Of a stretch of DNA of 64,000 nt, positions 4,662-61,291 are shown piece after piece. The position numbers and the translations under genes are program-made. This DNA comes from Amia ocellicauda (lineage: Eukaryota; Chordata; Actinopteri; Amiiformes; Amiidae): the NCBI RefSeq assembly GCF_036373705.1, contig NC_089855.1, forward strand, positions 48,281,318-48,345,317. The letters run 5' to 3'. A model generated the notes under the pieces. That model was not told the origin of the DNA. It worked only from the letters and a program-made list of their open reading frames with translations, and did not search any database. Within the stretch, counting starts at the first letter, position 1; every line of letters starts with the position of its first letter.

Positions 4662-5103
4662 TTACAGCATGTACAGCCCCACGGCGAATGCTGCCGCAGC
4701 CACGCCCAGCCCCAGGACCAATCGCAGTGCGGGGAAGGTGCCGAGCAAACCTGAGGGGGGCGGGGTCTGCAGCTTCTTCACTCCTGATTGGTTGCCTTAG
4801 GAAGAGGGAAAACCAATGGATTGGTTAGTATGTTAAGAGTGACAGGTGTGTATTTTGTGTGTTTCAGTGTTTGTCCACATGTGTATGTGCGTCTGGGTGA
4901 GTTTCTGTGACTGTGCTAGAGTGCGTGTGTACAGTGTGTGCGTGTGTGTGTCTCTCACCGTGTGTGTTGCTGCTGGCTCTGTAGCGGATGTGCTGCTCTC
5001 TTTCACTCCCTCTCTCACTCTTCACCTCTTTCTGTGCCTCTGCTGATCCCACCATCTTCTCCAGATCCTCAAACAACTGCAGAATACAGACAGTGTTAAT
5101 ATA

Positions 5104-5138
<35 letters not shown>

Positions 5139-5147
5139 GTTAATATA

Positions 5148-5181
<34 letters not shown>

Positions 5182-5281
5182 ACAGTGTTAATATACCACA
5201 CACACACACACAGACAGTGTTAATATACCACACACACACACACACACACATACACACACACACACAGACAGTGTTAATATA

Positions 5282-5321
<40 letters not shown>

Positions 5322-5477
5322 ACAGTGTTAATATACCACACACACACACACACAGACAGTGTTAATATACCACACATACACACACACTCACAGACAGTGT
5401 TAATATACCACACACACACACACACACACAGTCTTAATATACCACACACACACACACACACACACAGTGTTAATATA

Positions 5478-5522
<45 letters not shown>

Positions 5523-5533
5523 GTGTTAATATA

Positions 5534-5576
<43 letters not shown>

Positions 5577-5698
5577 GTTAATATACCACACACACACACA
5601 CAGACAGTGTTAATATACCACACACACACACACACAGACAGTGTTAATATACCACACACACACACACACACACTCACAGACAGTGTTAATATACCACA

Positions 5699-5736
<38 letters not shown>

Positions 5737-6532
5737 GTGTTAATATACCACACACACACAGACAGTGTTAATATACCACACACACACACTCACAGACAGT
5801 GTTAATATACCACACACACACACACACAGACAGTGTTAATATACCACACACACAGTGTTAATATACCACACACACACACATTCACACACAACAGAGTCAG
5901 TGTTAATATACCACACACACACTAACACAGACAGTGTTAATATACCACACACACACACACACACACAGACAGTGTTAATATACCACACACACACAGAGAC
6001 AGTGTTAATATACCACACACACACACACACAGACAGTGTTAATATACCACACACACACACATACACACACACACAGAGTCAGTGTTAATATAACACACAC
6101 ACACAGTCAGTGTTAATATAACACACACACACACAGACAGTGTTAATATACCACACACACACACTCACAGACAGTGTTAATATACCACACACACACACAC
6201 ACACAGACAGTGTTAATATACCACACACACAGTGTTAATATACCACACACACACACACATACACACACAACAGTCAGTGTTAATATACCACACACACACT
6301 AACACAGACAGTGTTAATATACCACACACACACACACACAGACAGTGTTAATATACCACACACACACAGAGTCAGTGTTAATATAACACACACACACACA
6401 CACACACAGAGTCAGTGTTAATATAACACACACACACAGTCAGTGTTAATATAACACACACACACACACAGACAGTGTTAATATACCACACACACACACT
6501 AACACACACACACACACAGAGTCAGTGTTAAT

Positions 6533-6578
<46 letters not shown>

Positions 6579-7802
6579 GTTAATTTACCGCACTCTCTCA
6601 CCTCTATGTTCAGTGTGAAGGCAGTGTTGGCCTCCTGAGTGACAGCCTGCTTGTGGGAGGGGCTTAGCTCCAGGCTGTTCATGCGTGATCTGTACAGCTG
6701 CTTGAAGCGTGTGGCGTTGGTAACCCCCGGAAACGAGAAGAAATCCAGCCCCGCCCCCTCACCGCCCGGCAGCCCCAGGGCCTTCTGGGCCATCTTGCCC
6801 AGCACCTGCCCCCCCGACAGGTCACCAAGATAACGGGTGTAGGAGTGGGCCACCAGCAGCTCGGGGTGGTCCTTCCCCACCTGAGAGACAGAGAGAGAGG
6901 TTAGTACACATACAGTGTGTGTCCAGTGCATGTAAAGTGCATGTCCAGTGCATGTCCAGTGTGTGTCCAGTGTGTCTGTACCTCTCGGAGTCTCTGTGCG
7001 TATCTCAGCGCGGCGGCGGGGGGCTTGGCGACCCGCTCTCTCCAGCCCGGGCCCAGGTGGTACTGCAGGTCAGCCTCCAGGGCGGCGACCCGGCTCAGCT
7101 CGGCTGGGAAGTGGACTGGAGCCACAGAGGGGTGGGACGCGTTCCGATCTAGCTCCTCCTCCAGGGCTGTGTACACAGTGTACAGACAGCACAGCAGCAA
7201 CTAGAGGCAGAGAGAGAGGGAGAGGGGGATTCACTCAACACGTACTGGACATTACTGTGGACTGAGGCTATCACTGAACGGTGAGAGAGAGACAGACAGA
7301 GAGACGGACACAGAGGCACAGAGACACAGAGGCACAGAGACAGAGACACAGAGAGTGAGACACAGAGGCACAGAGAGTGAGACAGACATATCGGTGGTGG
7401 ATCGATGTACGGATGGGCTGATCAGTTTTCGGTCGGCTGGTACCTTGTGCTCGGGCAGGGTGATCTGGCCCTTCTGGAAGCGCAGCATCAGCGCTGTGTT
7501 CTCTGCGCGCTCGTGAGCCTGGCGGGTCGCTCCCTTGATCAGCTCCGACAGGTCCACACTGGTACAGAGAGAGAAGGAGATTCATTTTAAACAGAGTGTC
7601 AGATTGTCAGTGTGTCAGAGTGTCAGAGTGCAACAGTGCCAGCCTATCAGAGTGTTAGTGTGTCAGTGTCAGTGTGTCAGTGTGTCAGTAGTACCTGTCT
7701 GTGGTGTCCTGGCCCTGCGCTGATCTCACCATCTTCTCCAGCTCCTCAAACAGCTGCAGGACACAGATAGTTTTAATATACCACACAGTCAGTGTTAATA
7801 TA

Positions 7803-7845
<43 letters not shown>

Positions 7846-7868
7846 GTTAATATACCACACACACACAC

Positions 7869-7911
<43 letters not shown>

Positions 7912-7936
7912 CAGTGTTAATATACCACACACACAC

Positions 7937-7985
<49 letters not shown>

Positions 7986-9411
7986 CAGTGTTAATATAAC
8001 ACACACACACACACAGTGTTAATTTACCGCACTCTCTCACCTCTATGTTCAGTGTGAAGGCAGTGTTGGCCTCCTGAGTGACAGCCTGCTTGTGGGCGGG
8101 GCTTAGCTCCAGGCTGTTCATGCGTGATCTGTACAGCTGCTTGAAGCGTGTGGCGTTGGTAACCCCCGGAAACGAGAAGAAATCCAGCCCCGCCCCCTCA
8201 CCGCCCGGCAGCCCCAGGGCCTTCTGGGCCATCTTGCCCAGCACCTGCCCCCCCGACAGGTCACCAAGATAACGGGTGTAGGAGTGGGCCACCAGCAGCT
8301 CGGGGTGGTCCTTCCCCACCTGAGAGACAGAGAGAGAGGTTAGTACACATACAGTGTGTGTCCAGTGCATGTAAAGTGCATGTCCAGTGGGTGTCCAGTG
8401 TGTGTCCAGTGCGTGTCCAGTGTGTCCAGTGTGTCCAGTGTGTCTGTACCTCTCGTAGTCTCTGTGCGTATCTCAGCGCGGCGGCGGGGGGCTTGGCGAC
8501 CCGCTCTCTCCAGCCCGGGCCCAGGTGGTACTGCAGGTCAGCCTCCAGGGCGGCGACCCGGCTCAGCTCGGCTGGGAAGTGGACTGGAGCCACAGAGGGG
8601 TGGGACGCGTTCCGATCTAGCTCCTCCTCCAGGGCTGTGTACACAGTGTACAGACAGCACAGCAGCAACTAGAGGCAGAGAGAGAGGGAGAGGGGGATTC
8701 ACTCAACACGTACTGGACATTACTGTGGACTGAGGCTATCACTGAACGGAGAGAGAGACAGACACAGAGTGAGACACAGAGGCACAGAGACACAGAGAGT
8801 GAGACACAGAGGCACAGAGACAGAGAGAGTGAGACAGAGACACAGAGAGTGAGACACAGAGGCACAGAGAGTGAGACAGACAGATCGGTGGTATATCGAT
8901 GGACGGATGGGCTGATCAGTTTTCGGTCGGCTGGTACCTTGTGCTCGGGCAGGGTGATCTGGCCCTTCTGGAAGCGCAGCATCAGCGCTGTGTTCTCTGC
9001 GCGCTCGTGAGCCTGGCGGGTCGCTCCCTTGATCAGCTCCGACAGGTCCACACTGGTACAGAGAGAGAGGGAGATTCATTTTAAACAGAGTGTCAGATTG
9101 TCAGTGTGTCAGAGTGTCAGAGTGCAACAGTGTCAACCTATTAGAGTGTTAGTGTGTCAGAGTGTTAGAGAGCTAAATGCCATACTACTAGGGTTTCAGA
9201 GTATCAGTGCCAGTGTGTCAGAGTGTCAGAGTGCAACAGTGCCAGCCTATCAGAGTGTTAGTGTGTCAGTGTCAGTGTCAGTGTGTCAGTGTGTCAGTAG
9301 TACCTGTCTGTGGTGTCCTGGCCCTGCGCTGATCTCACCATCTTCTCCAGCTCCTCAAACAGCTGCAGGACACAGATAGTTTTAATATACCACACAGTCA
9401 GTGTTAATATA

Positions 9412-9456
<45 letters not shown>

Positions 9457-9479
9457 GTTAATATACCACACACACACAC

Positions 9480-9522
<43 letters not shown>

Positions 9523-9535
9523 CAGTGTTAATATA

Positions 9536-9572
<37 letters not shown>

Positions 9573-9582
9573 CAGTGTTAAT

Positions 9583-9626
<44 letters not shown>

Positions 9627-11054
9627 GTTAATTTACCGCACTCTCTCACCTCTATGTTCAGTGTGAAGGCAGTGTTGGCCTCCTGAGTGACAGCCTGCTT
9701 GTGGGCGGGGCTTAGCTCCAGGCTGTTCATGCGTGATCTGTACAGCTGCTTGAAGCGTGTGGCGTTGGTAACCCCCGGAAACGAGAAGAAATCCAGCCCC
9801 GCCCCCTCACCGCCCGGCAGCCCCAGGGCCTTCTGGGCCATCTTGCCCAGCACCTGCCCCCCCGACAGGTCACCAAGATAACGGGTGTAGGAGTGGGCCA
9901 CCAGCAGCTCGGGGTGGTCCTTCCCCACCTGAGAGACAGAGAGAGAGGTTAGTACACATACAGTGTGTGTCCAGTGCATGTAAAGTGCATGTCCAGTGCG
10001 TGTCCAGTGTGTGTCCAGTGCGTGTCCAGTGCGTGTCCAGTGTGTCCAGTGTGTCTGTACCTCTCGGAGTCTCTGTGCGTATCTCAGCGCGGCGGCGGGG
10101 GGCTTGGCGACCCGCTCTCTCCAGCCCAGGCCCAGGTGGTACTGCAGGTCAGCCTCCAGGGCGGCGACCCGGCTCAGCTCGGCTGGGAAGTGGACTGGAG
10201 CCACAGAGGGGTGGGACGCGTTCCGATCTAGCTCCTCCTCCAGGGCTGTGTACACAGTGTACAGACAGCACAGCAGCAACTAGAGGCAGAGAGAGAGGGA
10301 GAGGGGGATTCACTCAACACGTACTGGACATTACTGTGGACTGAGGCTATCACTGAACGGAGAGAGAGACAGACAGAGAGACGGACACAGAGGCACAGAG
10401 ACACAGAGGCACAGAGAGTGAGACAGAGACACAGAGACAGACACAGAGTGAGACACAGAGGCACAGAGACACAGAGAGTGAGACACAGAGGCACAGAGAC
10501 AGAGAGAGTGAGACAGAGACACAGAGAGTGAGACACAGAGGCACAGAGAGTGAGACAGACAGATCGGTGGTATATCGATGGACGGATGGGCTGATCAGTT
10601 TTCGGTCGGCTGGTACCTTGTGCTCGGGCAGGGTGATCTGGCCCTTCTGGAAGCGCAGCATCAGCGCTGTGTTCTCTGCGCGCTCGTGAGCCTGGCGGGT
10701 CGCTCCCTTGATCAGCTCCGACAGGTCCACACTGGTACAGAGAGGGAGGGAGATTCATTTTGAACTCATTCACAGATTTACTGAATCTTATTTATTGCTT
10801 GTTTTTTAAGAAATGTTATTAGTATTTATGACCTATTCTTTGTTAATGTATTTGTGTTTTACACATGCATTGGCACGATCAAGGAAAGATGTCATGCCAG
10901 TGAAGCGTGTTCGACTGAGTGAAGGAGAGACAGAGAGAGAGAGAGGGAGGAGGGGTCATTACACAGTTAGTCAGAGTGTCAGAGTGTCAGAGTGTCAGTA
11001 GTACCTGTCTGTGGTGTCCTGGCTCTGTTTCTCTCTGTGGTTCTGGGTGTCCAT
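4662..11054 (-). CDS. hmox1: Heme oxygenase 1 with three tandem catalytic domains (predicted 752 aa)
   Basis: Heme oxygenase opens heme to biliverdin, CO and iron at the ER membrane using cytochrome P450 reductase. Exons on the minus strand: 11054-11005 ([19 protein letters not shown]), 10731-10617, 10279-10061, 9928-9650, 9362-9304, 9052-8938, 8668-8450, 8319-8041, 7753-7695, 7558-7444, 7200-6982, 6880-6602, 5076-4959 and 4795-4662. They total 2259 nt, and all junctions are GT-AG and in frame. Each of three units has the proximal heme-ligand His ([12 protein letters not shown]; about residues 32, 256 and 480) and the distal-helix GDLSGG (about 147, 371 and 595). Only the last unit continues into the normal exon 5 and the hydrophobic anchor ending AVGLYML. 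A single-unit product would be 304 aa, close to the usual ~290. Orthology is certain. Whether the triple protein is made, or splicing skips units, cannot be seen. An assembly error is possible. Confidence 0.85.
5098..6590. repeat. Compound CA microsatellite/minisatellite in hmox1 intron before exon 5
   Basis: About 1.5 kb of (CA)n tracts, each punctuated by the invariant motif GTGTTAATATACCACAC or a close variant, repeated several dozen times. The unbroken frames in it are a consequence of the repeat and are not genes. Confidence 0.95.
7262..7390. repeat. Purine-rich minisatellite in hmox1 intron 2, unit C
   Basis: Imperfect repeats of CACAGAGGCACAGAGA and GAGTGAGACAGAGACA type lie between exons 2 and 3. 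Counterparts lie at 8750-8880 and 10365-10560, with copy number differing between units. Confidence 0.7.
7695..7753 (-). other. Hybrid exon joining hmox1 units B and C
   Basis: This 59-nt exon reads [13 protein letters not shown], the start of exon 5, then GQDTTD and AG, the end of exon 1. It has the acceptor of exon 5 and the donor (CAG/GTAC) and downstream intron sequence of exon 1. It leaves phase 2, exactly as exon 1 does, so it splices in frame into the next exon 2. Confidence 0.85.
7775..8030. repeat. CA/GTGTTAATATACC repeat, hmox1 unit B intron
   Basis: Shorter copy of the compound CA repeat in the matching intron (exon 4 to hybrid exon). Five or so punctuating motifs remain. Confidence 0.9.
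9304..9362 (-). other. Hybrid exon joining hmox1 units A and B
   Basis: Same 59-nt fusion of exon 5 head and exon 1 tail as at 7695-7753, with the same acceptor, donor and phase. It forms the linker between the first and second heme oxygenase domains. Confidence 0.85.
9380..9630. repeat. CA/GTGTTAATATACC repeat, hmox1 unit A intron
   Basis: Third copy of the compound CA repeat, in the matching intron of unit A. Tract lengths differ from units B and C while the exons beside it are nearly identical. Confidence 0.9.
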
Positions 11055-11770: not shown

Positions 11771-12183
11771 TGCTGGCACAGATTGGAGAGAGAGAGAGAG
11801 AGAGAGAGGGAGGGAGGGAGGGAGGGAGGGAGGGAGGGAGTGCTGAGTCAAGGTTTGAGGCTGCTGTGGAAAACTCCGAGTCATGTTTTCACCCCCCTCT
11901 CCCTCTCCCTCGGTCACATGTCGTCTCCGCTGTTTTCCTTGCTGACTCAAAATCAAAGTCTGTCTTCCTGTCCTCACACACAAGCCCCGTCCCCCTCTCC
12001 CTCCCTCCACTCAGGAAAAGTGCAGAGTCACGTTACGCCCCTCTCTGCCCCCTGGCTCTGTTCCACGGGTTCCAGCAGATAAGCCATCTCTGGACTGCCT
12101 CTCTCCCTGGTTACTGTTTACCCTCCTTGCCCAGTGTGTTTGCCCAGCGCCGGCAGAGAGAGAGAACCCCAGCTCACAGCGCT
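11771..12183. promoter_or_regulatory. Candidate stress-response enhancer of hmox1, proximal copy
   Basis: The segment begins TGCTGGCACAGATTGG, has a (GGGA)n tract, then carries TGCTGAGTCA at 11841-11850 and TGCTGACTCA at 11940-11949. Both fit the StRE/MARE core bound by NRF2-small MAF and repressed by BACH1, the factors that control HMOX1 in vertebrates through such elements. It lies about 330-440 bases upstream of the inferred start site. The regulatory role is inferred from motif and position. Confidence 0.6.
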
Positions 12184-12189
12184 GTGCTG

Positions 12190-15100
12190 AGTTGTAGCAT
12201 TGTGTTCCTTCTCTACTGCAGTGTGCTGTGCTGTACTGTAGTGTGCTGTGCTGTACAGTAGTGTAGTGTGCTGTGCTGTACTGTAGTGTGCTGTGCTGTG
12301 GTGTACAGCAGTGTAGTGTGCTGTGCTGTACTGTAGTGTAGTGTGCTGTGGTGTACTGTACTGTAGTGTAGTGTGCTGTGCTGTACTGTACTGTAGTGTA
12401 GTGTGCTGTGCTGTACTGTACTGTAGTGTAGTGTGCTGTGCTGTACTGTACAGCAGTGTAGTGTGCTGTGCTGTACTGTAGTGTAGTGTGCTGTGCTGTG
12501 CTGTACAGCAGTGTAGTGTGCTGTGCTGTACTGTAGTGTAGTGTGCTGTGCTGTACAGCAGTGTAGTGTGGTGTGGTGTACTGTACTGTACTGTAGTGTG
12601 CTGTGCTGTACTGTACTGTAGTGTGCTGTGCTGTACTGTAGTGTAGTGTGCTGTGCTGTACAGCAGTGTAGTGTGGTGTGGTGTACTGTACTGTACTGTA
12701 GTGTGCTGTGCTGTACTGTACTGTAGTGTGCTGTGCTGTACTGTAGTGTAGTGTGCTGTGCTGTACAGCAGTGTAGTGTGCTGTGGTGTACTGTACTGTA
12801 CTGTAGTGTGCTGTGCTGTACTGTACTGCAGGGTAGTGTGCTGTGCTGTACTGTAGTGTAGTGTGCTGTGCTGTACAGCAGTGTAGTGTGCTGTGGTGTA
12901 CTGTACTGCAGGGTAGTGTGCTGTGCTGTACTGTAGTGTAGTGTGCTGTGCTGTACAGCAGTGTAGTGTGCTGTGGTGTACTGTACTGTACTGTAGTGTG
13001 CTGTGCTGTACTGTACTGCAGGGTAGTGTGCTGTGCTGTACTGTAGTGTAGTGTGCTGTGCTGTACAGCAGTGTAGTGTGCTGTGGTGTACTGTAGTGTA
13101 GTGTGCTGTGCTGTACAGCAGTGTAGTGTGCTGTGGTGTACTGTAGTGTAGTGTGCTGTGCTGTACTGTACTGTACTGTAGTGTGCTGTGCTGTACTGTA
13201 GTGTGCTGTGCTGTACTGTAGTGTAGTGTGCTGTGCTGTACAGCAGTGTAGTGTGCTGTGGTGTACTGTACTGTACTGTAGTGTGCTGTGCTGTACTGTA
13301 CTGCAGGGTAGTGTGCTGTGCTGTACTGTAGTGTAGTGTGCTGTGCTGTACAGCAGTGTAGTGTGCTGTGCTGTACTGTAGTGTATTGTGCTGTGCTGTA
13401 CTGTAGTGTATTGTGCTGTGCTGTGCTGTACTGTAGTGTAGTGTGCTGTGCTGTACAGCAGTGTAGTGTGCTGTGGTGTACTGTAGTGTGCTGTGCTGTA
13501 CTGTACTGTAGTGTGCTGTGCTGTACAGCAGTGTAGTGTGCTGTGCTGTACTGTAGTGTGCTGTGCTGTGCTGTACAGCAGTGTAGTGTGCTGTGCTGTA
13601 CTGTAGTGTAGTGTGCTGTGGTGTACTGTAGTGTAGTGTGCTGTGCTGTACAGCAGTGTAGTGTGCTGTGCTGTACTGTAGTGTGCTGTGCTGTGCTGTA
13701 CAGCAGTGTAGTGTGCTGTGCTGTACTGTAGTGTAGTGTGCTGTGGTGTACTGTAGTGTAGTGTGCTGTACTGTACTGCAGGGTAGTGTGCTGTGGTGTA
13801 CTGTAGTGTACTGTAGTGTGCTGTGCTGTACTGTACTGTAGTGTGCTGTGCTGTACTGTAGTGTAGTGTGCTGTGCTGTACTGTAGTGTGCTGTGCTGTA
13901 CTGTAGTGTAGTGTGCTGTGCTGTACTGTAGTGTGCTGTGCTGTGCTGTACAGCAGTGTAGTGTGCTGTGCTGTGCTGTACTGTAGTGTAGTGTGCTGTG
14001 GTGTACAGCAGTGTAGTGTGCTGTGGTGTACTGTACTGTACTGTAGTGTGCTGTGGTGTACTGTAGTGTAGTGTGCTGTGGTGTAGTGTGCTGTGGTGTA
14101 CTGTACTGCAGTGTAGTGTGCTGTGCTGTACTGTAGTGTAGTGTGCTGTGGTGTACAGCAGTGTAGTGTGCTGTGGTGTACTGTACTGTACTGTAGTGTG
14201 CTGTGGTGTACTGTAGTGTAGTGTGCTGTGGTGTAGTGTGCTGTGGTGTACTGTACTGCAGGGTAGTGTGCTGTGCTGTACTGTAGTGTAGTGTGCTGTG
14301 CTGTACAGCAGTGTAGTGTGCTGTGGTGTACTGTACTGCAGGGTAGTGTGCTGTGCTGTACTGTAGTGTAGTGTGCTGTGCTGTACTGTAGTGTGCTGTG
14401 CTGTACTGTAGTGTGCTGTGCTGTACTGTAGTGTAGTGTGCTGTGCTGTACTGTAGTGTAGTGTGCTGTGCTGTACTGTAGTGTGCTGTGCTGTACAGCA
14501 GTGTAGTGTGCTGTGGTGTACTGTACTGTACTGTAGTGTGCTGTGCTGTACTGTACTGCAGGGTAGTGTGCTGTGGTGTACTGTACTGTACTGTAGTGTG
14601 CTGTGCTGTACTGTACTGTAGTGTGCTGTGCTGTACTGTAGTGTAGTGTGCTGTGGTGTAGTGTGCTGTGGTGTACTGTACTGCAGGGTAGTGTGCTGTG
14701 CTGTACTGTAGTGTAGTGTGCTGTGCTGTACAGCAGTGTAGTGTGCTGTGGTGTACTGTACTGCAGGGTAGTGTGCTGTGCTGTACTGTAGTGTAGTGTG
14801 CTGTGCTGTACAGCAGTGTAGTGTGCTGTGGTGTACTGTACTGTACTGTAGTGTGCTGTGCTGTACTGTACTGCAGGGTAGTGTGCTGTGCTGTACTGTA
14901 GTGTAGTGTGCTGTGCTGTACAGCAGTGTAGTGTGCTGTGCTGTACTGTAGTGTGCTGTGCTGTGCTGTACAGCAGTGTAGTGTGCTGTGCTGTACTGTA
15001 CTGCAGGGTAGTGTGCTGTGCTGTACTGTAGTGTAGTGTGCTGTGCTGTACAGCAGTGTAGTGTGCTGTGGTGTACTGTAGTGTAGTGTGCTGTGCTGTA

Positions 15101-15775
15101 CAGCAGTGTAGTGTGCTGTGGTGTACTGTAGTGTAGTGTGCTGTGCTGTACTGTACTGTACTGTAGTGTGCTGTGCTGTACTGTAGTGTGCTGTGCTGTA
15201 CTGTAGTGTAGTGTGCTGTGCTGTACAGCAGTGTAGTGTGCTGTGGTGTACTGTACTGTACTGTAGTGTGCTGTGCTGTGCTGTACAGCAGTGTAGTGTG
15301 CTGTGCTGTACTGTAGTGTATTGTGCTGTGCTGTACTGTAGTGTATTGTGCTGTGCTGTGCTGTACTGTAGTGTAGTGTGCTGTGCTGTACAGTAGTGTA
15401 GTGTGCTGTGCTGTACTGTAGTGTGCTGTGCTGTGCTGTACAGCAGTGTAGTGTGCTGTGCTGTACTGTAGTGTAGTGTGCTGTGGTGTACTGTAGTGTA
15501 GTGTGCTGTGCTGTACAGCAGTGTAGTGTGCTGTGCTGTACTGTAGTGTGCTGTGCTGTGCTGTACAGCAGTGTAGTGTGCTGTGCTGTACTGTAGTGTA
15601 GTGTGCTGTGCTGTACAGCAGTGTAGTGTGCTGTGGTGTACAGCAGTGTAGTGTGCTGTGGTGTACTGTACTGTACTGTAGTGTGCTGTGCTGTACTGTA
15701 GTGTAGTGTGCTGTGGTGTAGTGTAGTGTGCTGTGCTGTACTGCAGGGTAGTGTGCTTTGCTATACTGCAATGTA
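12190..15775. repeat. CTGTR/GTGTR pentanucleotide satellite, 3.6 kb
   Basis: Tandem five-base units (CTGTA, GTGTA, GTGTG, CTGTG, CAGCA, CAGGG) fill the interval. They form larger blocks of the type CTGTACAGCAGTGTAGTGTG. A longer period is visible: the stretch starting at 13081 recurs at 15066. The minus strand is stop-free for about 1200 codons because no unit combination gives a stop there; this is not a gene. Confidence 0.95.
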
Positions 15776-15850
15776 GTGTGGTATACTGTACTGCAGTCTA
15801 GTGTGCTATACTGCAGTGTTGTGTGTGTATATTATGGTGTACTGCAATAC

Positions 15851-16067: not shown

Positions 16068-17292
16068 TACACTCACCTAAAGGATTATTAGGAACACCTG
16101 TTCAATTTCTCATTAATGCAATTATCTAACCAACCAATCACATGGCAGTTGCTTCAATGCATTTAGGGGTGTGGTCCTGGTCATGACAATCTCCTGAACT
16201 CCAAACTGGATGTCTGAATGGGAAAGAAAGGTGATTTAAGCAATTTTGAGCGTGGCATGGTTGTTGGTGCCAGACGGGCCGGTCTGAGTATTTCACAATC
16301 TGCTCAGTTACTGGGATTTTCACACACAACCATTTCTAGGGTTTACAAAGAATGGTGTGAAAAGGGAAAAACATCCAGTATGCGGCAGTCCTGTGGGCGA
16401 AAATGCCTTGTTGATGCTAGAGGTCAGAGGAGAATGGGCCGACTGATTCAAGCTGATAGAAGAGCAACTTTGACTGAAATAACCACTCGTTACAACCGAG
16501 GTATGCAGCAAAGCATTTGTGAAGCCACAACACGTACAACCTTGAGGCGGATGGGCTACAACAGCAGAAGACCCCACCGGGTACCACTCATCTCCACTAC
16601 AAATAGGAAAAAGAGGCTACAATTTGCACAAGCTCACCAAAATTGGACAGTTGAAGACTGGAAAAATGTTGCCTGGTCTGATGAGTCTCGATTTCTGTTG
16701 AGACATTCAGATGGTAGAGTCAGAATTTGGCGTAAACAGAATGAGAACATGGATCCATCATGCCTTGTTACCACTGTGCAGGCTGGTGGTGGTGGTGTAA
16801 TGGTGTGGGGGATGTTTTCTTGGCACACTTTAGGCCCCTTAGTGCCAATTGGGCATCGTTTAAATGCCACGGCCTACCTGAGCATTGTTTCTGACCATGT
16901 CCATCCCTTTATGACCACCATGTACCCATCCTCTGATGGCTACTTCCAGCAGGATAATGCACCATGTCACAAAGGTCGAATCATTTCAAATTGGTTTCTT
17001 GAACATGACAATGAGTTCACTGTACTAAACTGGCCCCCACAGTCACCAGATCTCAACCCAATAGAGCATCTTTGGGATGTGGTGGAACGGGAGCTTCGTG
17101 CCCTGGATGTGCATCCCACAAATCTCCATCAACTGCAAGATGCTATCCTATCAATATGGGCCAACATTTCTAAAGAATGCTTTCAGCACCTTGTTGAATC
17201 AATGCCACGTAGAATTAAGGCAGTTCTGAAGGCGAAAGGGAGTCAAACACAGTATTAGTATGGTGTTCCTAATAATCCTTTAGGTGAGTGTA
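16068..17292 (+). mobile_element. Full-length Tc1-like transposon with intact transposase
   Basis: The element has near-perfect 31-bp terminal inverted repeats: the left end begins TACACTCACCTAAAGGATTA and the right end is its complement. TA dinucleotides flank it at 16066-16067 and 17293-17294, as expected for Tc1/mariner target-site duplication. It contains one uninterrupted transposase frame. The match between the ends and the open frame indicate a young insertion. It separates the pentanucleotide array from the distal enhancer copy. Confidence 0.93.
16218..17258 (+). CDS. Tc1-like DD34E transposase, intact, 346 aa
   Basis: A cut-and-paste transposase of the Tc1/mariner superfamily acts in the nucleus on the element's inverted repeats. 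The N-terminus has paired helix-turn-helix character (FERGMVVGARRAGLSISQSA then ISRVYKEW). The catalytic region shows AWSDESRF (first Asp), QQDNAPCH (second Asp) and SPDLNPIEHLWD (Glu), in the DD34E spacing typical of Tc1. GGGGVMVWG and HTLGPL are family hallmarks. The length is usual for Tc1 transposases. The start is the ATG at 16218. No frameshift or stop is present, so activity is possible but unproven. Confidence 0.93.
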   Translation: MGKKGDLSNFERGMVVGARRAGLSISQSAQLLGFSHTTISRVYKEWCEKGKTSSMRQSCGRKCLVDARGQRRMGRLIQADRRATLTEITTRYNRGMQQSICEATTRTTLRRMGYNSRRPHRVPLISTTNRKKRLQFAQAHQNWTVEDWKNVAWSDESRFLLRHSDGRVRIWRKQNENMDPSCLVTTVQAGGGGVMVWGMFSWHTLGPLVPIGHRLNATAYLSIVSDHVHPFMTTMYPSSDGYFQQDNAPCHKGRIISNWFLEHDNEFTVLNWPPQSPDLNPIEHLWDVVERELRALDVHPTNLHQLQDAILSIWANISKECFQHLVESMPRRIKAVLKAKGSQTQY

Positions 17293-18385: not shown

Positions 18386-18793
18386 TGCTGGCACAGATTG
18401 GAGAGAGAGAGTGAGAGAGTGAGAGAGTGAGGGAGGGAGGGAGGGAGGGAGTGCTGAGTCAAGGTTTGAGGCTGCTGTGCAAAACTCCGAGTCATGTTTT
18501 CACCCCCCTCTCCCTCTCCCTCGGTCACATGTCGTCTCCGCTGTTTTCCTTGCTGACTCAAAATCAAAGTCTGTCTTCCTGTCCTCACACACAAGCCCCG
18601 TCCCCCTCTCCCTCCCTCCACTCAGGAAAAGTGCAGAGTCACGTTACGCCCCTCTCTGCCCCCTGGCTCTGTTCCACGGGTTCCAGCAGATAAGCCATCT
18701 CTGGACTGCCTCTCTCCCTGGTTACTGTTTACCCTCCTTGCCCAGTGTGTTTGCCCAGCGCCGGCAGAGAGAGAGAGCCCCAGCTCACGGGGC
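18386..18793. promoter_or_regulatory. Candidate stress-response enhancer of hmox1, distal duplicate
   Basis: Nearly identical to 11771-12183 over its full length, including both sites (TGCTGAGTCA at 18452-18461, TGCTGACTCA at 18551-18560). The visible differences are mainly in the simple-repeat start plus scattered substitutions, such as TGTGGAAAA versus TGTGCAAAA. It lies about 6.6 kb further upstream in the same orientation. It could also be an unrecognised dispersed repeat. Confidence 0.55.
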
Positions 18794-23470: not shown

Positions 23471-24660
23471 ATGTATCACATGTATTATATGGTGGTTCCC
23501 ATATAAACACTTCAAAAGTGTTAAATTGAATACTCATGGTGTTCAAACATTCAAATTTGCTGTGCGAGCTCATAATTATATAATTGAGCCTTATATTGCA
23601 TTGGTAGTTCAATTAAGGAATCAATTAAGTGTAGCAGAGTGGAAATTAACCCTAAAGAATGTATATGACTTTCACCACAATTCTGTTTCTATATTTGTAT
23701 GTGTATTATTTCGTTATTGAAGTACTTTACAGGGGTGTTAGGAGAGCTCTAGTGGTTAGAAACGGCAGCTGTCAGTATAACTTCCTGTTTTCAACAGAAG
23801 TACCTCTGATACCTTCCATTAAAGTGTGTCGATAGGTAGTTCTTATAGTATAGTAATATAGTTTTATGAATAAAATATCCCGTTTCACCTCAAAAACTAA
23901 GATTACAGTCAATGTAATATGACATTTTATTATTTGAATTAATCTAAGTTTATAGTTTTATGACGTTTTACTATTAGTACCATGCTTTACGTCATGTTAC
24001 AGTACGCGGCAACAATATAATAGTAATTAATTTCTGTTGTATTGGTTTCATCGAATGCTCGGACTGGGATTTGCCTGCTTTGATGTACTGTATATATTAC
24101 CAGGTATTTTTAATTTTTCGTATTTTTATTTTATATTTGAATCAAGGTTTTTCCTACTCTATTTGGAATGCAAATATTAAACGTACATTGAAAGTTATAA
24201 TTACTGTATTTGTAATAGCTAATCCTTAAGAATGGTTAAGAGCATGAACACCATTATAACTGCTTTGATTTGATTTGATTTCTTTTTATTTTACTGGAGG
24301 CATTTTGAAAAAAAACAAAACGAAACTATACGATCACTATTACTTTTTGTTTATATGTGTGAAAACTATTTCATATAATACAATGTGTACAAATTGCACT
24401 AAGAGAGAAACTGAGGGAGAGGTAAGACAGATGAACAAAAGCTCACTTCCAACACTTTCACTCACTCACTCACACACACACAGTGTCTGATGTATTGATC
24501 TGAATGTGTTTGGCTGCAGTGAATATGATCACTCATTCAGACTGGTTGTGCCAGTGAATTGCCACCTCTTGGCAGGCGTCAGAGGTCAGAGGTCAAAGGG
24601 CTGCAGGAGCACACAGCCATCACAACCAAACAGAGTCAAAGCAGAGCGAGTGACTGTCTG
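23470..24660. other. AT-rich sequence upstream of the apolipoprotein-L-like exon
   Basis: I could not identify the expected upstream exons. A short (CTCA)n/(CA)n tract lies near 24459-24482 and (GTCT)n near 24655-24675. Confidence 0.4.
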
Positions 24661-24681
24661 TCTGTCTGTCTGTCCTCACAG

Positions 24682-25555
24682 GATCGCAGCTCTGAAGGAG
24701 GAGGTGATGATGATTAATGAGATTGTGGAGGCAAGTGGAGGGAAGCTGGCTGAGGATCCAGAGGTGAAAGAGGAATTGGAGAAGATCTCAGAGTTTGTTA
24801 AGGAGTTCCCTGAAAAGAAGGAAAAACTAGAAAAAAGTAAAGAGGAACTCAATCACATCGCATATCGCCTCGTTCCCGAAAGCACCGTAGCTCAGGGAGG
24901 GGCTGTGGTCGGGGTGGGTGCTGGTGTAACGACGCTGCTGTCAGTGTTCACAGCAGGAGTTGCTGGTCTTGCATTTGGAGCAGCAGCAGCAGGAATAACA
25001 CTTGCTCTCATTGCTTATTTAAACAAGGAGATAACAAAAATTAAAAATAAAATCTTTAAAGATCTGGAAGAAAGTGAAAAACCTCTGAAGGCGGCCTGTG
25101 TTGGAGTTACCAAGCTGTCAAAAACCCTGGTCAGCAAAGCAGCAAATGACCCGGATGAGAAGAGGATCACAAGAGCAAGCCGAAACGAAGAGAGAATTCA
25201 AGCTCTAGGCACATATCCATGTAGTCCGAGCTATTTTGCAGTAGCCGGTGCAGTTTGTGAACATGGTGTACGCTTCAGTGCTGTAGGCAGTGCAATCGGT
25301 ACAGATTGTACACATTGTGCACTCAGATATAGGTTAGGTACAGCAGTTGGTACAGCAGTTGGTGCATCAGTTCGTGCAACATTTGGTGGTGCATTTGGTA
25401 GTCCTGTACGTTTAATCAGTGGAGCACTGAATCACAGCTCGCTTTCCCCTCCTGAGAAGAAAGATCATGTCAATAAATGTGTCCAAATGATTGACAGAAA
25501 TATAAAGACAAGCAGCTCAGTTCACTCTGAATTACAGTTACTGTTTCGAAGTTAG
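24682..25555 (+). CDS. Apolipoprotein-L-like protein, terminal exon (partial)
   Basis: A pyrimidine-rich acceptor (GTCTGTCTGTCCTCACAG) precedes an 874-base exon ending in TAG. The coded ~290 residues start with a charged, probably helical region (KEEVMMINEIVEASGGK, then a Lys/Glu-rich segment). Next comes a Gly/Ala-rich hydrophobic pair of segments (GAVVGVGAGVTTLLSVF, VAGLAFGAAAAGITLALIAY), a basic linker, and a second Gly/Ala-rich, zipper-like region (GTAVGTAVGASVRATFGG). The C-terminus is amphipathic. Helix bundle plus Gly-zipper hairpin is the general plan of the apolipoprotein L family, and APOL genes lie in the same human chromosomal block as HMOX1, MCM5 and FOXRED2. Identity is therefore moderate and partly positional. 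The frame runs open to an ATG at 24506, but that is in the intron-like tract. Upstream exons were not found. Confidence 0.5.
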
Positions 25556-29827: not shown

Positions 29828-32800
29828 GCAGGTCTGTGTTTGGCGTCTCTGTGCGGATGTCCACAGGGAGAGTGTTTGGTGTCTCTGTGCGGATGTCCAC
29901 AGGGAGAGCGTCTGTGTTTGGCGTCTCTGTGCGGATGTCCACAGGGAGAGCGTCTGTGTTTGGCGTCTCTGTGCGGATGTCCACAGGGAGAGTGTTTGGT
30001 GTCTCTGTGCGGATGTCCACAGGGAGAGCGTCTGTGTTTGGCGTCTCTGTGCGGATGTCCACAGGGAGAGCGTCTGTGCTTGGCGTCTCTGTGCGGATGT
30101 CCACAGGGAGAGCGTCTGTGTTTGGCGTCTCTGTGCGGATGTCCACAGGGAGAGCGTCTGTGTTTGGCGTCTCTGTGCGGATGTCCACAGGGAGAGCGTC
30201 TGTGTTTGGCGTCTCTGTGCGGATGTCCACAGGGAGAGCGTCTGTGTTTGGCGTCTCTGTGCGGATGTCCACAGGGAGAGCGTCTGTGTTTGGCGTCTCT
30301 GTGCGGATGTCCACAGGGAGAGCGTCTGTGTTTGGCGTCTCTGTGCGGATGTCCACAGGGAGAGCGTCTGTGTTTGGCGTCTCTGTGCGGATGTCCACAG
30401 GGAGAGCGTTTGGTGTCTCTGTGCGGATGTCCACAGGGAGAGAGTCTGTGTTTGGCGTCTCTGTGCGGATGTCCACAGGGAGAGCGTCTGGTGTCTCTGT
30501 GCGGATGTCCACAGGGAGAGAGTCTGTGTTTGGTGTCTCTGTGCGGATGTCCACAGGGAGAGCGTCTGTGTTTGGCGTCTCTGTGCGGATGTCCACAGGG
30601 AGAGCGTCTGTGTTTGGCGTCTCTGTGCGGATGTCCACAGGGAGAGCGTCTGTGTTTGACGTCTCTGTGCGGATGTCCACAGGGAGAGTGTTTGATGTCT
30701 CTGTGCGGATGTCCACAGGGAGAGTGTTTGGTGTCTCTGTGCGGATGTCCACAGGGAGAGCGTCTGTGTTTGGCGTCTCTGTGCGGATGTCCACAGGGAG
30801 AGCGTCTGTGCTTGGCGTCTCTGTGCGGATGTCCACAGGGAGAGCGTCTGTGTTTGGCGTCTCTGTGCGGATGTCCACAGGGAGAGCGTCTGTGTTTGGC
30901 GTCTCTGTGCGGATGTCCACAGGGAGAGCGTCTGTGTTTGGCGTCTCTGTGCGGATGTCCACAGGGAGAGCGTCTGTGTTTGGCGTCTCTGTGCGGATGT
31001 CCACAGGGAGAGCGTCTGTGTTTGGCGTCTCTGTGCGGATGTCCACAGGGAGAGCGTCTGTGTTTGGCGTCTCTGTGCGGATGTCCACAGGGAGAGCGTT
31101 TGGTGTCTCTGTGCGGATGTCCACAGGGAGAGAGTCTGTGTTTGGCGTCTCTGTGCGGATGTCCACAGGGAGAGCGTCTGGTGTCTCTGTGCGGATGTCC
31201 ACAGGGAGAGAGTCTGTGTTTGGTGTCTCTGTGCGGATGTCCACAGGGAGAGCGTCTGTGTTTGGCGTCTCTGTGCGGATGTCCACAGGGAGAGCGTCTG
31301 TGTTTGGCGTCTCTGTGCGGATGTCCACAGGGAGAGCGTCTGTGTTTGACGTCTCTGTGCGGATGTCCACAGGGAGAGTGTTTGATGTCTCTGTGCGGAT
31401 GTCCACAGGGAGAGTGTTTGGTGTCTCTGTGCGGATGTCCACAGGGAGAGCGTCTGTGTTTGGCGTCTCTGTGCGGATGTCCACAGGGAGAGCGTCTGTG
31501 CTTGGCGTCTCTGTGCGGATGTCCACAGGGAGAGCGTCTGTGCTTGGCGTCTCTGTGCGGATGTCCACAGGGAGAGCGTCTGTGTTTGGCGTCTCTGTGC
31601 GGATGTCCACAGGGAGAGCGTCTGTGTTTGGCGTCTCTGTGCGGATGTCCACAGGGAGAGCGTCTGTGTTTGGCGTCTCTGTGCGGATGTCCACAGGGAG
31701 AGCGTTTGGTGTCTCTGTGCGGATGTCCACAGGGAGAGAGTCTGTGTTTGGCGTCTCTGTGCGGATGTCCACAGGGAGAGAGTCTGTGTTTGGCGTCTCT
31801 GTGCGGATGTCCACAGGGAGAGTGTTTGGTGTCTCTGTGCGGATGTCCACAGGGAGAGCGTCTGTGTATGGTGTCTCTGTGCGGATGTCCACAGGGAGAG
31901 CGTCTGGTGTCTCTGTGCGGATGTCCACAGGGAGAGAGTCTGTGTTTGGCGTCTCTGTGCGGATGTCCACAGGGAGAGCGTCTGTGTTTGGCGTCTCTGT
32001 GCGGATGTCCACAGGGAGAGCGTCTGTGTTTGGCGTCTCTGTGCGGATGTCCACAGGGAGAGTGTTTGGCGTCTCTGTGCGGATGTCCACAGGGAGAGTG
32101 TTTGGCGTCTCTGTGCGGATGTCCACAGGGAGAGCGTCTGCGTTTGGCGTCTCTGTGTGGATGTCCACAGGGAGAGCTTCTGCGTTTGGCGTCTCTGTGC
32201 GGATGTCCACAGGGAGAGCGTCTGCGTTTGGCGTCTCTGTGCGGATGTCCACAGGGAGAGCGTCTGCGTTTGGCGTCTCTGTGCGGATGTCCACAGGGAG
32301 AGCGTCTGCGTTTGGCGTCTCTGTGCGGATGTCCACAGGGAGAGCGTCTGCGTTTGGCGTCTCTGTGCGGATGTCCACAGGGAGAGCGTCTGCGTTTGGC
32401 GTCTCTGTGCGGATGTCCACAGGGAGAGCGTCTGCGTTTGGCGTCTCTGTGCGGATGTCCACAGGGAGAGCGTCTGCGTTTGGCGTCTCTGTGCGGATGT
32501 CCACAGGGAGAGCGTCTGCGTTTGGCGTCTCTGTGCGGATGTCCACAGGGAGAGCGTCTGCGTTTGGCGTCTCTGTGCGGATGTCCACAGGGAGAGCGTC
32601 TGCGTTTGGCGTCTCTGTGCGGATGTCCACAGGGAGAGCGTCTGTGTTTGGCGTCTCTGTGCGGATGTCCACAGGGAGAGCGTCTGTGTTTGGCGTCTCT
32701 GTGCGGATGTCCACAGGGAGAGTGTTTGGCGTCTCTGTGCGGATGTCCACAGGGAGAGTGTTTGGTGTCTCTGTGCGGATGTCCACAGGGAGAGTGTTTG

Positions 32801-32875
32801 GTGTCTCTGTGCGGATGTCCACAGGGAGAGAGTCTGTGTTTGGTGTCTCTGTGCGGATGTCCACAGGGAGAGTGT
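29828..32875. repeat. 42-bp coding-phase minisatellite, about 75 units
   Basis: Units read TTTGGCGTCTCTGTGCGGAT followed by GTCCACAGGGAGAGCGTCTG plus two bases. A 36-bp variant lacks six bases near the unit joint. All unit lengths are multiples of three and no unit carries a stop in most frames, so five frames stay open for roughly 1000 codons or nearly so (for example repeats of LCGCPQGERLCLAS on plus, DALPVDIRTETPNT on minus). A block of variants at 30401-30790 recurs about 690 bp later at 31091-31480. I do not call it a gene because no single frame is favoured. Confidence 0.95.

Positions 32876-40782: not shown

Positions 40783-61291
<20,509 letters not shown>

Follow-up and report, generated by a model that had tools for sequence, protein, structure and literature searches.

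Bowfin hmox1 as a predicted three-domain heme oxygenase gene with multi-domain counterparts in other fishes

The bowfin Amia ocellicauda probably makes a heme oxygenase-1 (HO-1) that carries three complete catalytic domains in one chain. HO-1 is a central stress and iron-recycling enzyme and is generally treated as a one-domain protein. We analysed a window of 64,000 nucleotides (nt) from the bowfin genome (NCBI RefSeq assembly GCF_036373705.1, contig NC_089855.1, positions 48,281,318 to 48,345,317), in which the HO-1 gene, hmox1, occupies positions 4662–11054 on the minus strand. With a probability of about 0.72, we read hmox1 as a tandem-domain gene whose 14 exons are spliced into one mRNA for an 83-kDa, three-domain protein anchored in the endoplasmic reticulum.

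The gene reads as a single open frame. Its 14 coding exons (Table 1) join into 2259 nt, or 752 codons plus a stop, and all 13 introns are GT-AG. Exons 2, 3 and 4 are present three times, with lengths of 115, 219 and 279 nt each time, and an intron of 101–132 nt divides the large catalytic exon of every unit into two (6602–10279). A preliminary description of this DNA had reported the threefold exon set, with equal lengths and intact splice sites, and the uninterrupted 752-codon frame; both were reproduced from the sequence. Between successive units lies a hybrid exon of 59 nt that occurs twice, as H1 and H2, in identical sequence. Its first half resembles the start of exon 5 and its second half the end of exon 1, fused in frame. 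Since one in three joins of exon 5 to exon 1 would be in frame by chance, an open hybrid exon is weak evidence by itself; three complete domains are not chance.

Each unit encodes a full heme oxygenase (HO) domain. The Pfam profile PF01126 matched the 752-residue chain in three stretches, with 673 bits in all (cut-off 23), and the best stretch spans profile positions 2–204 of 204. The proximal His and the GDLSGG distal helix stand in every unit, a claim of the preliminary description that comparison with the rat HO-1 pocket confirmed. Over 32 positions taken to line that pocket, every unit matches the rat enzyme at 29, including His25, Gly139, Asp140, Gly143 and Gly144, and the three differences (K22R, V24A and F47H) are common to all units. 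The sole hydrophobic stretch above threshold is a C-terminal anchor of 29 residues (724–752), with none in the linkers. Three PF01126 stretches, one hydrophobic stretch and in-frame hybrid exons thus bear out the single-anchor, three-domain design that had been proposed. Cys-Pro heme regulatory motifs characterise HO-2, and no Cys-Pro pair occurs in the 752 residues. Bowfin hmox1 shares with vertebrate HMOX1 (PF01126; PDB e.g. 6eha, 1n3u) the domain, the pocket residues, the C-terminal anchor and an MCM-family neighbour. It departs from the usual, though non-defining, HO-1 build of one catalytic domain and about 290 residues. A one-unit form would have a predicted mass of 33 kDa.

Bowfin is not the only fish with a predicted multi-domain HO-1. 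Vertebrate HOs had been described as always single-domain and the bowfin triple as without parallel, and predicted proteins from other fishes contradict both statements. Protein searches covered the best 120 of 327 matches for the 752-residue query and the best 120 of 1944 and 120 of 1935 in further searches. Among the 338 distinct proteins listed, 300 carry one HO stretch, 30 carry two, 6 carry three and 2 carry four, some of the multi-stretch records being broken single domains. A clean set held 26 fish records besides the window and P0001, a second Amia record. At least 13 elasmobranch species have clean predicted multi-domain HOs, with three domains in Cetorhinus (P0002), Pristis (P0003) and Heptranchias (P0004) and two in ten others, and at least 13 clean two-domain records come from eels, tarpon, bonefish and bony-tongues, among them Megalops (P0006) and Anguilla (P0008). 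A look at other species, which the preliminary description had suggested, thus turned up predicted counterparts in elasmobranchs and early teleost groups. These predicted proteins resemble the bowfin chain in having two or three domains, near-identical siblings, short hydrophilic linkers and one C-terminal anchor. They differ in that the bowfin linker is nearer its own tail and the bowfin domain cores group with gar. If a tandem-domain fish HO-1 is defined by at least two HO domains and a single C-terminal anchor, the bowfin chain is one.

Fusion of neighbouring genes by annotation is an unlikely cause of all these records. Exactly one hydrophobic stretch, at the C terminus, was found in 27 of 27 chains tested (the 26 fish records and the window), none of which has an internal anchor, and elasmobranch linkers are conserved. 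Annotation fusion is possible for single records. P0032 (Bagarius), which by eye resembles a pair of genes fused through a tail, was excluded from the tree and counts, as were five other broken, truncated or doubtful fish records (P0031, P0033, P0034, P0121 and P0222), a frog record with one split domain (P0038) and four non-vertebrate or unnamed records (P0005, P0025, P0026 and P0035). Among the last, three-domain HOs occur in two Basidiobolus fungi (P0025, P0026), P0005 has four HO domains on a 5,028-nt contig and P0035 has two.

Domains within one protein usually resemble each other more than they resemble domains elsewhere. In a tree of 74 domain rows, which took in only some single-domain records and from which coelacanth, chimaera and reedfish are absent, domains of one protein mostly cluster together. 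Of 60 domains, 52 match a sibling from their own chain better than any domain of another species. The eight exceptions come from Synaphobranchus, Anguilla and Conger 1a, where first domains pair with first and second with second (one tie), and from two skates, whose first domains match each other. Because these domains match by position across species, the eel and skate tandems seem to predate the species splits; tree support for the position-specific groups is weak.

The linkers point the same way as these exceptions. All 13 elasmobranch proteins have a first linker that is on average more similar to the linkers of other species than to the tail of its own chain (mean 58% vs 39% over 16 residues), and this conservation between species suggests that the linkers are translated. 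The same holds for 8 of 13 teleost proteins (52% vs 47%); teleost linkers are longer than the bowfin's and by eye consist of exon-5-like joined to exon-1-like sequence. Over 16 residues the bowfin linker shares 62.5% identity with its own tail. By these comparisons the fused genes seem to be of long standing in elasmobranchs and, though less plainly, in early teleosts, with domain cores that appear homogenised. Multi-domain fish HO-1 may thus consist of old tandem enzymes homogenised by gene conversion.

The design may have arisen more than once. Megalops and Anguilla rostrata have two domains under both 'heme oxygenase 1a' and 'heme oxygenase-like', and since both paralogue names carry two domains, the two-domain design probably predates the teleost genome duplication. 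Single-domain HO-1 among the matches listed comes from coelacanth (P0224), the chimaera Callorhinchus (P0318), reedfish (P0330), many modern teleosts and many tetrapods; sturgeon, paddlefish and lungfish are absent from the listed matches altogether. Gar HO-1 is probably single-domain, the record (P0122) being an N-terminally short isoform X2 with one domain. We lean towards repeated origin of tandem HO-1 in elasmobranchs, bowfin and stem teleosts. More tentatively, tandem HO-1 might have a single origin, deep in jawed vertebrates or at least earlier than the teleost genome duplication. Concerted evolution within the gene would then have maintained it for hundreds of millions of years, with repeated losses through deletion of units in chimaeras, lobe-fins, reedfish, gars and modern teleosts, and the linked domains would form a distinct enzyme with several sites and with kinetics or reductase coupling of its own. 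Such loss would come easily, since the 672 coding nt that drop out when identical units exchange unequally are a multiple of three.

The sequence of the hybrid exon shows how the bowfin tandem began. A segment with one end within exon 1 and the other within exon 5 was duplicated head to tail, and the break fused both exons in frame. Unequal crossing-over and gene conversion would then have supplied the third unit and would keep the units near-identical. The open frame, splice sites and anchor seen in the DNA would allow one mRNA from 14 exons and, from it, one tail-anchored chain. Each domain would convert heme to biliverdin, CO and iron like ordinary HO-1, so that one anchor and one induction event would yield three active sites. 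Human haptoglobin offers a likeness: its HP2 allele has internal exons duplicated in frame, with a copy number changeable by unequal exchange. Unlike bowfin hmox1, haptoglobin is not an enzyme and HP2 is known as a polymorphism.

Differences among the units give an uneven picture of selection. Comparison of all three units shows 3 variable sites in the coding exons (one Leu/Pro, one Ala/Ser and one silent) and no indels there. Between units 3 and 1, substitutions stand at 2 of 613 exon and 8 of 281 unique intron positions (Fisher p 0.002); between units 3 and 2 the counts are 2 of 613 and 7 of 281 (Fisher p 0.006). These 281 positions are hand-chosen unique ones, leave out the intron end before exon 5, which faces a different exon, and exclude a 2-nt indel from the substitutions scored. 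The contrast fits selection on the coding parts of unit 3.

Several observations weigh against a maintained three-domain enzyme. Exon-centred conversion could explain the unit 3 contrast equally, and units 1 and 2 show no such contrast, differing at 2 of 613 exon vs 3 of 323 intron positions. Two of the three coding differences between units alter an amino acid. Our reading is a prediction from DNA sequence, and the other multi-domain fish records are mostly gene predictions too. P0001, the top database match ('HMOX oxygenase, partial [Amia calva]', 99% identity over 54% of the query), is a partial model that runs into an intron after two units and stops short of exon 5 and the anchor. It lies on a 578,982-base contig, differs in detail from the window and has a hybrid junction between its two units; judging from that contig and those differences, we infer an independent assembly. 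The tandem form is present in this second Amia record, where two units are visible, and the third unit comes from the present assembly alone.

Three other explanations are less likely. Splicing that skips units could make a one- or two-domain main product from a triplicated hmox1, with the further units as spare or alternative cassettes. A unit with its hybrid exon measures 115+219+279+59 = 672 nt, a length whose skipping would preserve the frame, and all three possible one-unit joins read through. We nevertheless consider this unlikely, given that different sources predict two- and three-domain chains in many fishes and that elasmobranch linkers show the between-species conservation expected of translated sequence. 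It is distinctly improbable that the three units are an individual copy-number variant, or a short-lived functionless expansion, in a species whose usual allele has fewer. Units 1 and 2 are near-identical throughout, introns included, unequal exchange can alter unit number, and P0001 shows only two units. That record, however, has the tandem form too and breaks off before exon 5, so it does not fix the unit number, and the exon-5 half of the hybrid exon differs from terminal exon 5 at several sites, from which we conclude that the duplication is not brand new.

An assembly artefact, in which repeated sequence was expanded in error, is very improbable, even at a locus whose CA repeats and satellites favour misassembly. 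The window contains no N. Introns of the units differ by indels and substitutions, and the units are therefore not copies of one sequence. Erroneous expansion of a normal gene would not create a hybrid exon, which P0001 has on another contig. We also searched 181 bases around H1 through the assembly, which comprises 988 Mb in 385 contigs and places the window at C6:48281318-48345317 on a contig of at least 48 Mb. H1 and H2 gave the only full-length matches; 86 more were shorter, many of them in other repeat-rich places.

One other HO locus was found in the same assembly. A genome-wide PF01126 search gave 8 matches, 6 in hmox1 and 2 in a single locus on contig C23 (L009), and found no second HO-1 gene in the 988 Mb. 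The C23 locus is hmox2-like, with 66% and 80% identity to coelacanth HO-2 over two main exons and 47% over a third piece. It shares the domain family with hmox1 and differs from it in having one domain and an unsplit large exon. To the left of hmox1 in the window, an open reading frame at 429–824 carries an MCM domain; we take it to be MCM5, the expected neighbour of HMOX1. HO and MCM domains occur in one predicted chain in P0041-P0043 (a deer and two snakes).

Repeats surround and penetrate the gene. The CA-rich minisatellite before exon 5 (Table 1) has counterparts in units 1 and 2, whose corresponding introns contain shorter arrays of the 34-bp motif. Directly upstream of hmox1, a 3.6-kb satellite of TGTGCTGTACTG-like units extends over 12222-15828. 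It is followed at 16218-17258 by a stop-free open frame for 346 residues of a Tc1-like transposase (PF01498, PF13358). Further along lie an open frame at 24491-25555 with a weak apolipoprotein L match (22.5 bits, cut-off 25.9), a 3-kb array at 29832-32872 in which a 42-bp unit recurs about 75 times and, its length being divisible by 3, leaves several frames open on both strands, and an 18.8-kb GA-rich tandem array at 41897-60714 with a GC skew near 0.88, whose very long open frames are repeat artefacts.

The upstream region offers a hint of stress control. Induction of human HO-1 needs a pair of stress-element enhancers, which lie about 4 and 9 kb upstream (PMC4267629). Stress-response-like sites stand at 11841, 11940 and 12021 in the bowfin, two of them exact TGCTGASTCA and one with a mismatch, and these candidate sites are reminiscent of the human enhancers. 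They are a hint only, because the window shows no excess of the motif (10 found vs a shuffle mean of 30). The block of about 400 bp that contains them (11771-12177) recurs 6.6 kb further upstream at 18386-18788 with 97.8% identity, and a satellite and a Tc1-like element lie between the two copies.

Table 1. Features of the bowfin hmox1 locus, in window coordinates
Feature	Position	Strand	Basis
Exon 1 with start codon, 50 nt	11005..11054	-	exon joining
Exon 2, unit 1 (proximal His)	10617..10731	-	exon joining, pocket comparison
Exon 3, unit 1 (Leu variant)	10061..10279	-	exon joining
Exon 4, unit 1 (GDLSGG)	9650..9928	-	exon joining, pocket comparison
Hybrid exon H1, 59 nt, exon 5 start + exon 1 end	9304..9362	-	exon joining, genome search
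Exon 2, unit 2	8938..9052	-	exon joining
Exon 3, unit 2	8450..8668	-	exon joining
Exon 4, unit 2	8041..8319	-	exon joining
Hybrid exon H2, same sequence as H1	7695..7753	-	exon joining
Exon 2, unit 3	7444..7558	-	exon joining
Exon 3, unit 3	6982..7200	-	exon joining
Exon 4, unit 3 (Ser variant)	6602..6880	-	exon joining
Terminal exon 5	4959..5076	-	exon joining
Exon 6, C-terminal hydrophobic anchor + stop	4662..4795	-	exon joining, hydrophobicity scan
About 40 copies of 34-bp CA-rich minisatellite, intron before exon 5	5163..6499		repeat scan
Three stress-response-like sites, 0.8-1.0 kb upstream of start codon	11841..12030		motif search

Multi-domain HO-1 may be new to the literature. The titles and abstract openings of open-licence PubMed Central (PMC) papers, a scope outside which most subscription journals and preprints fall, held no description of a multi-domain vertebrate HO, and the main text of the bowfin genome paper has no word beginning 'hmox' and no 'heme oxygenase' (PMC8423624). 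As far as that open-licence literature goes, such an enzyme may not have been described before, although a prior description is possible. A multi-domain HO-1 in several fish lineages under concerted evolution would be a more interesting result than the bowfin gene alone. It would be a clear example of parts of one coding gene evolving in concert, and near-identical linked domains on one anchor would offer a natural test of why HO domains join in cis, whether for dose, oligomer formation or reductase sharing.

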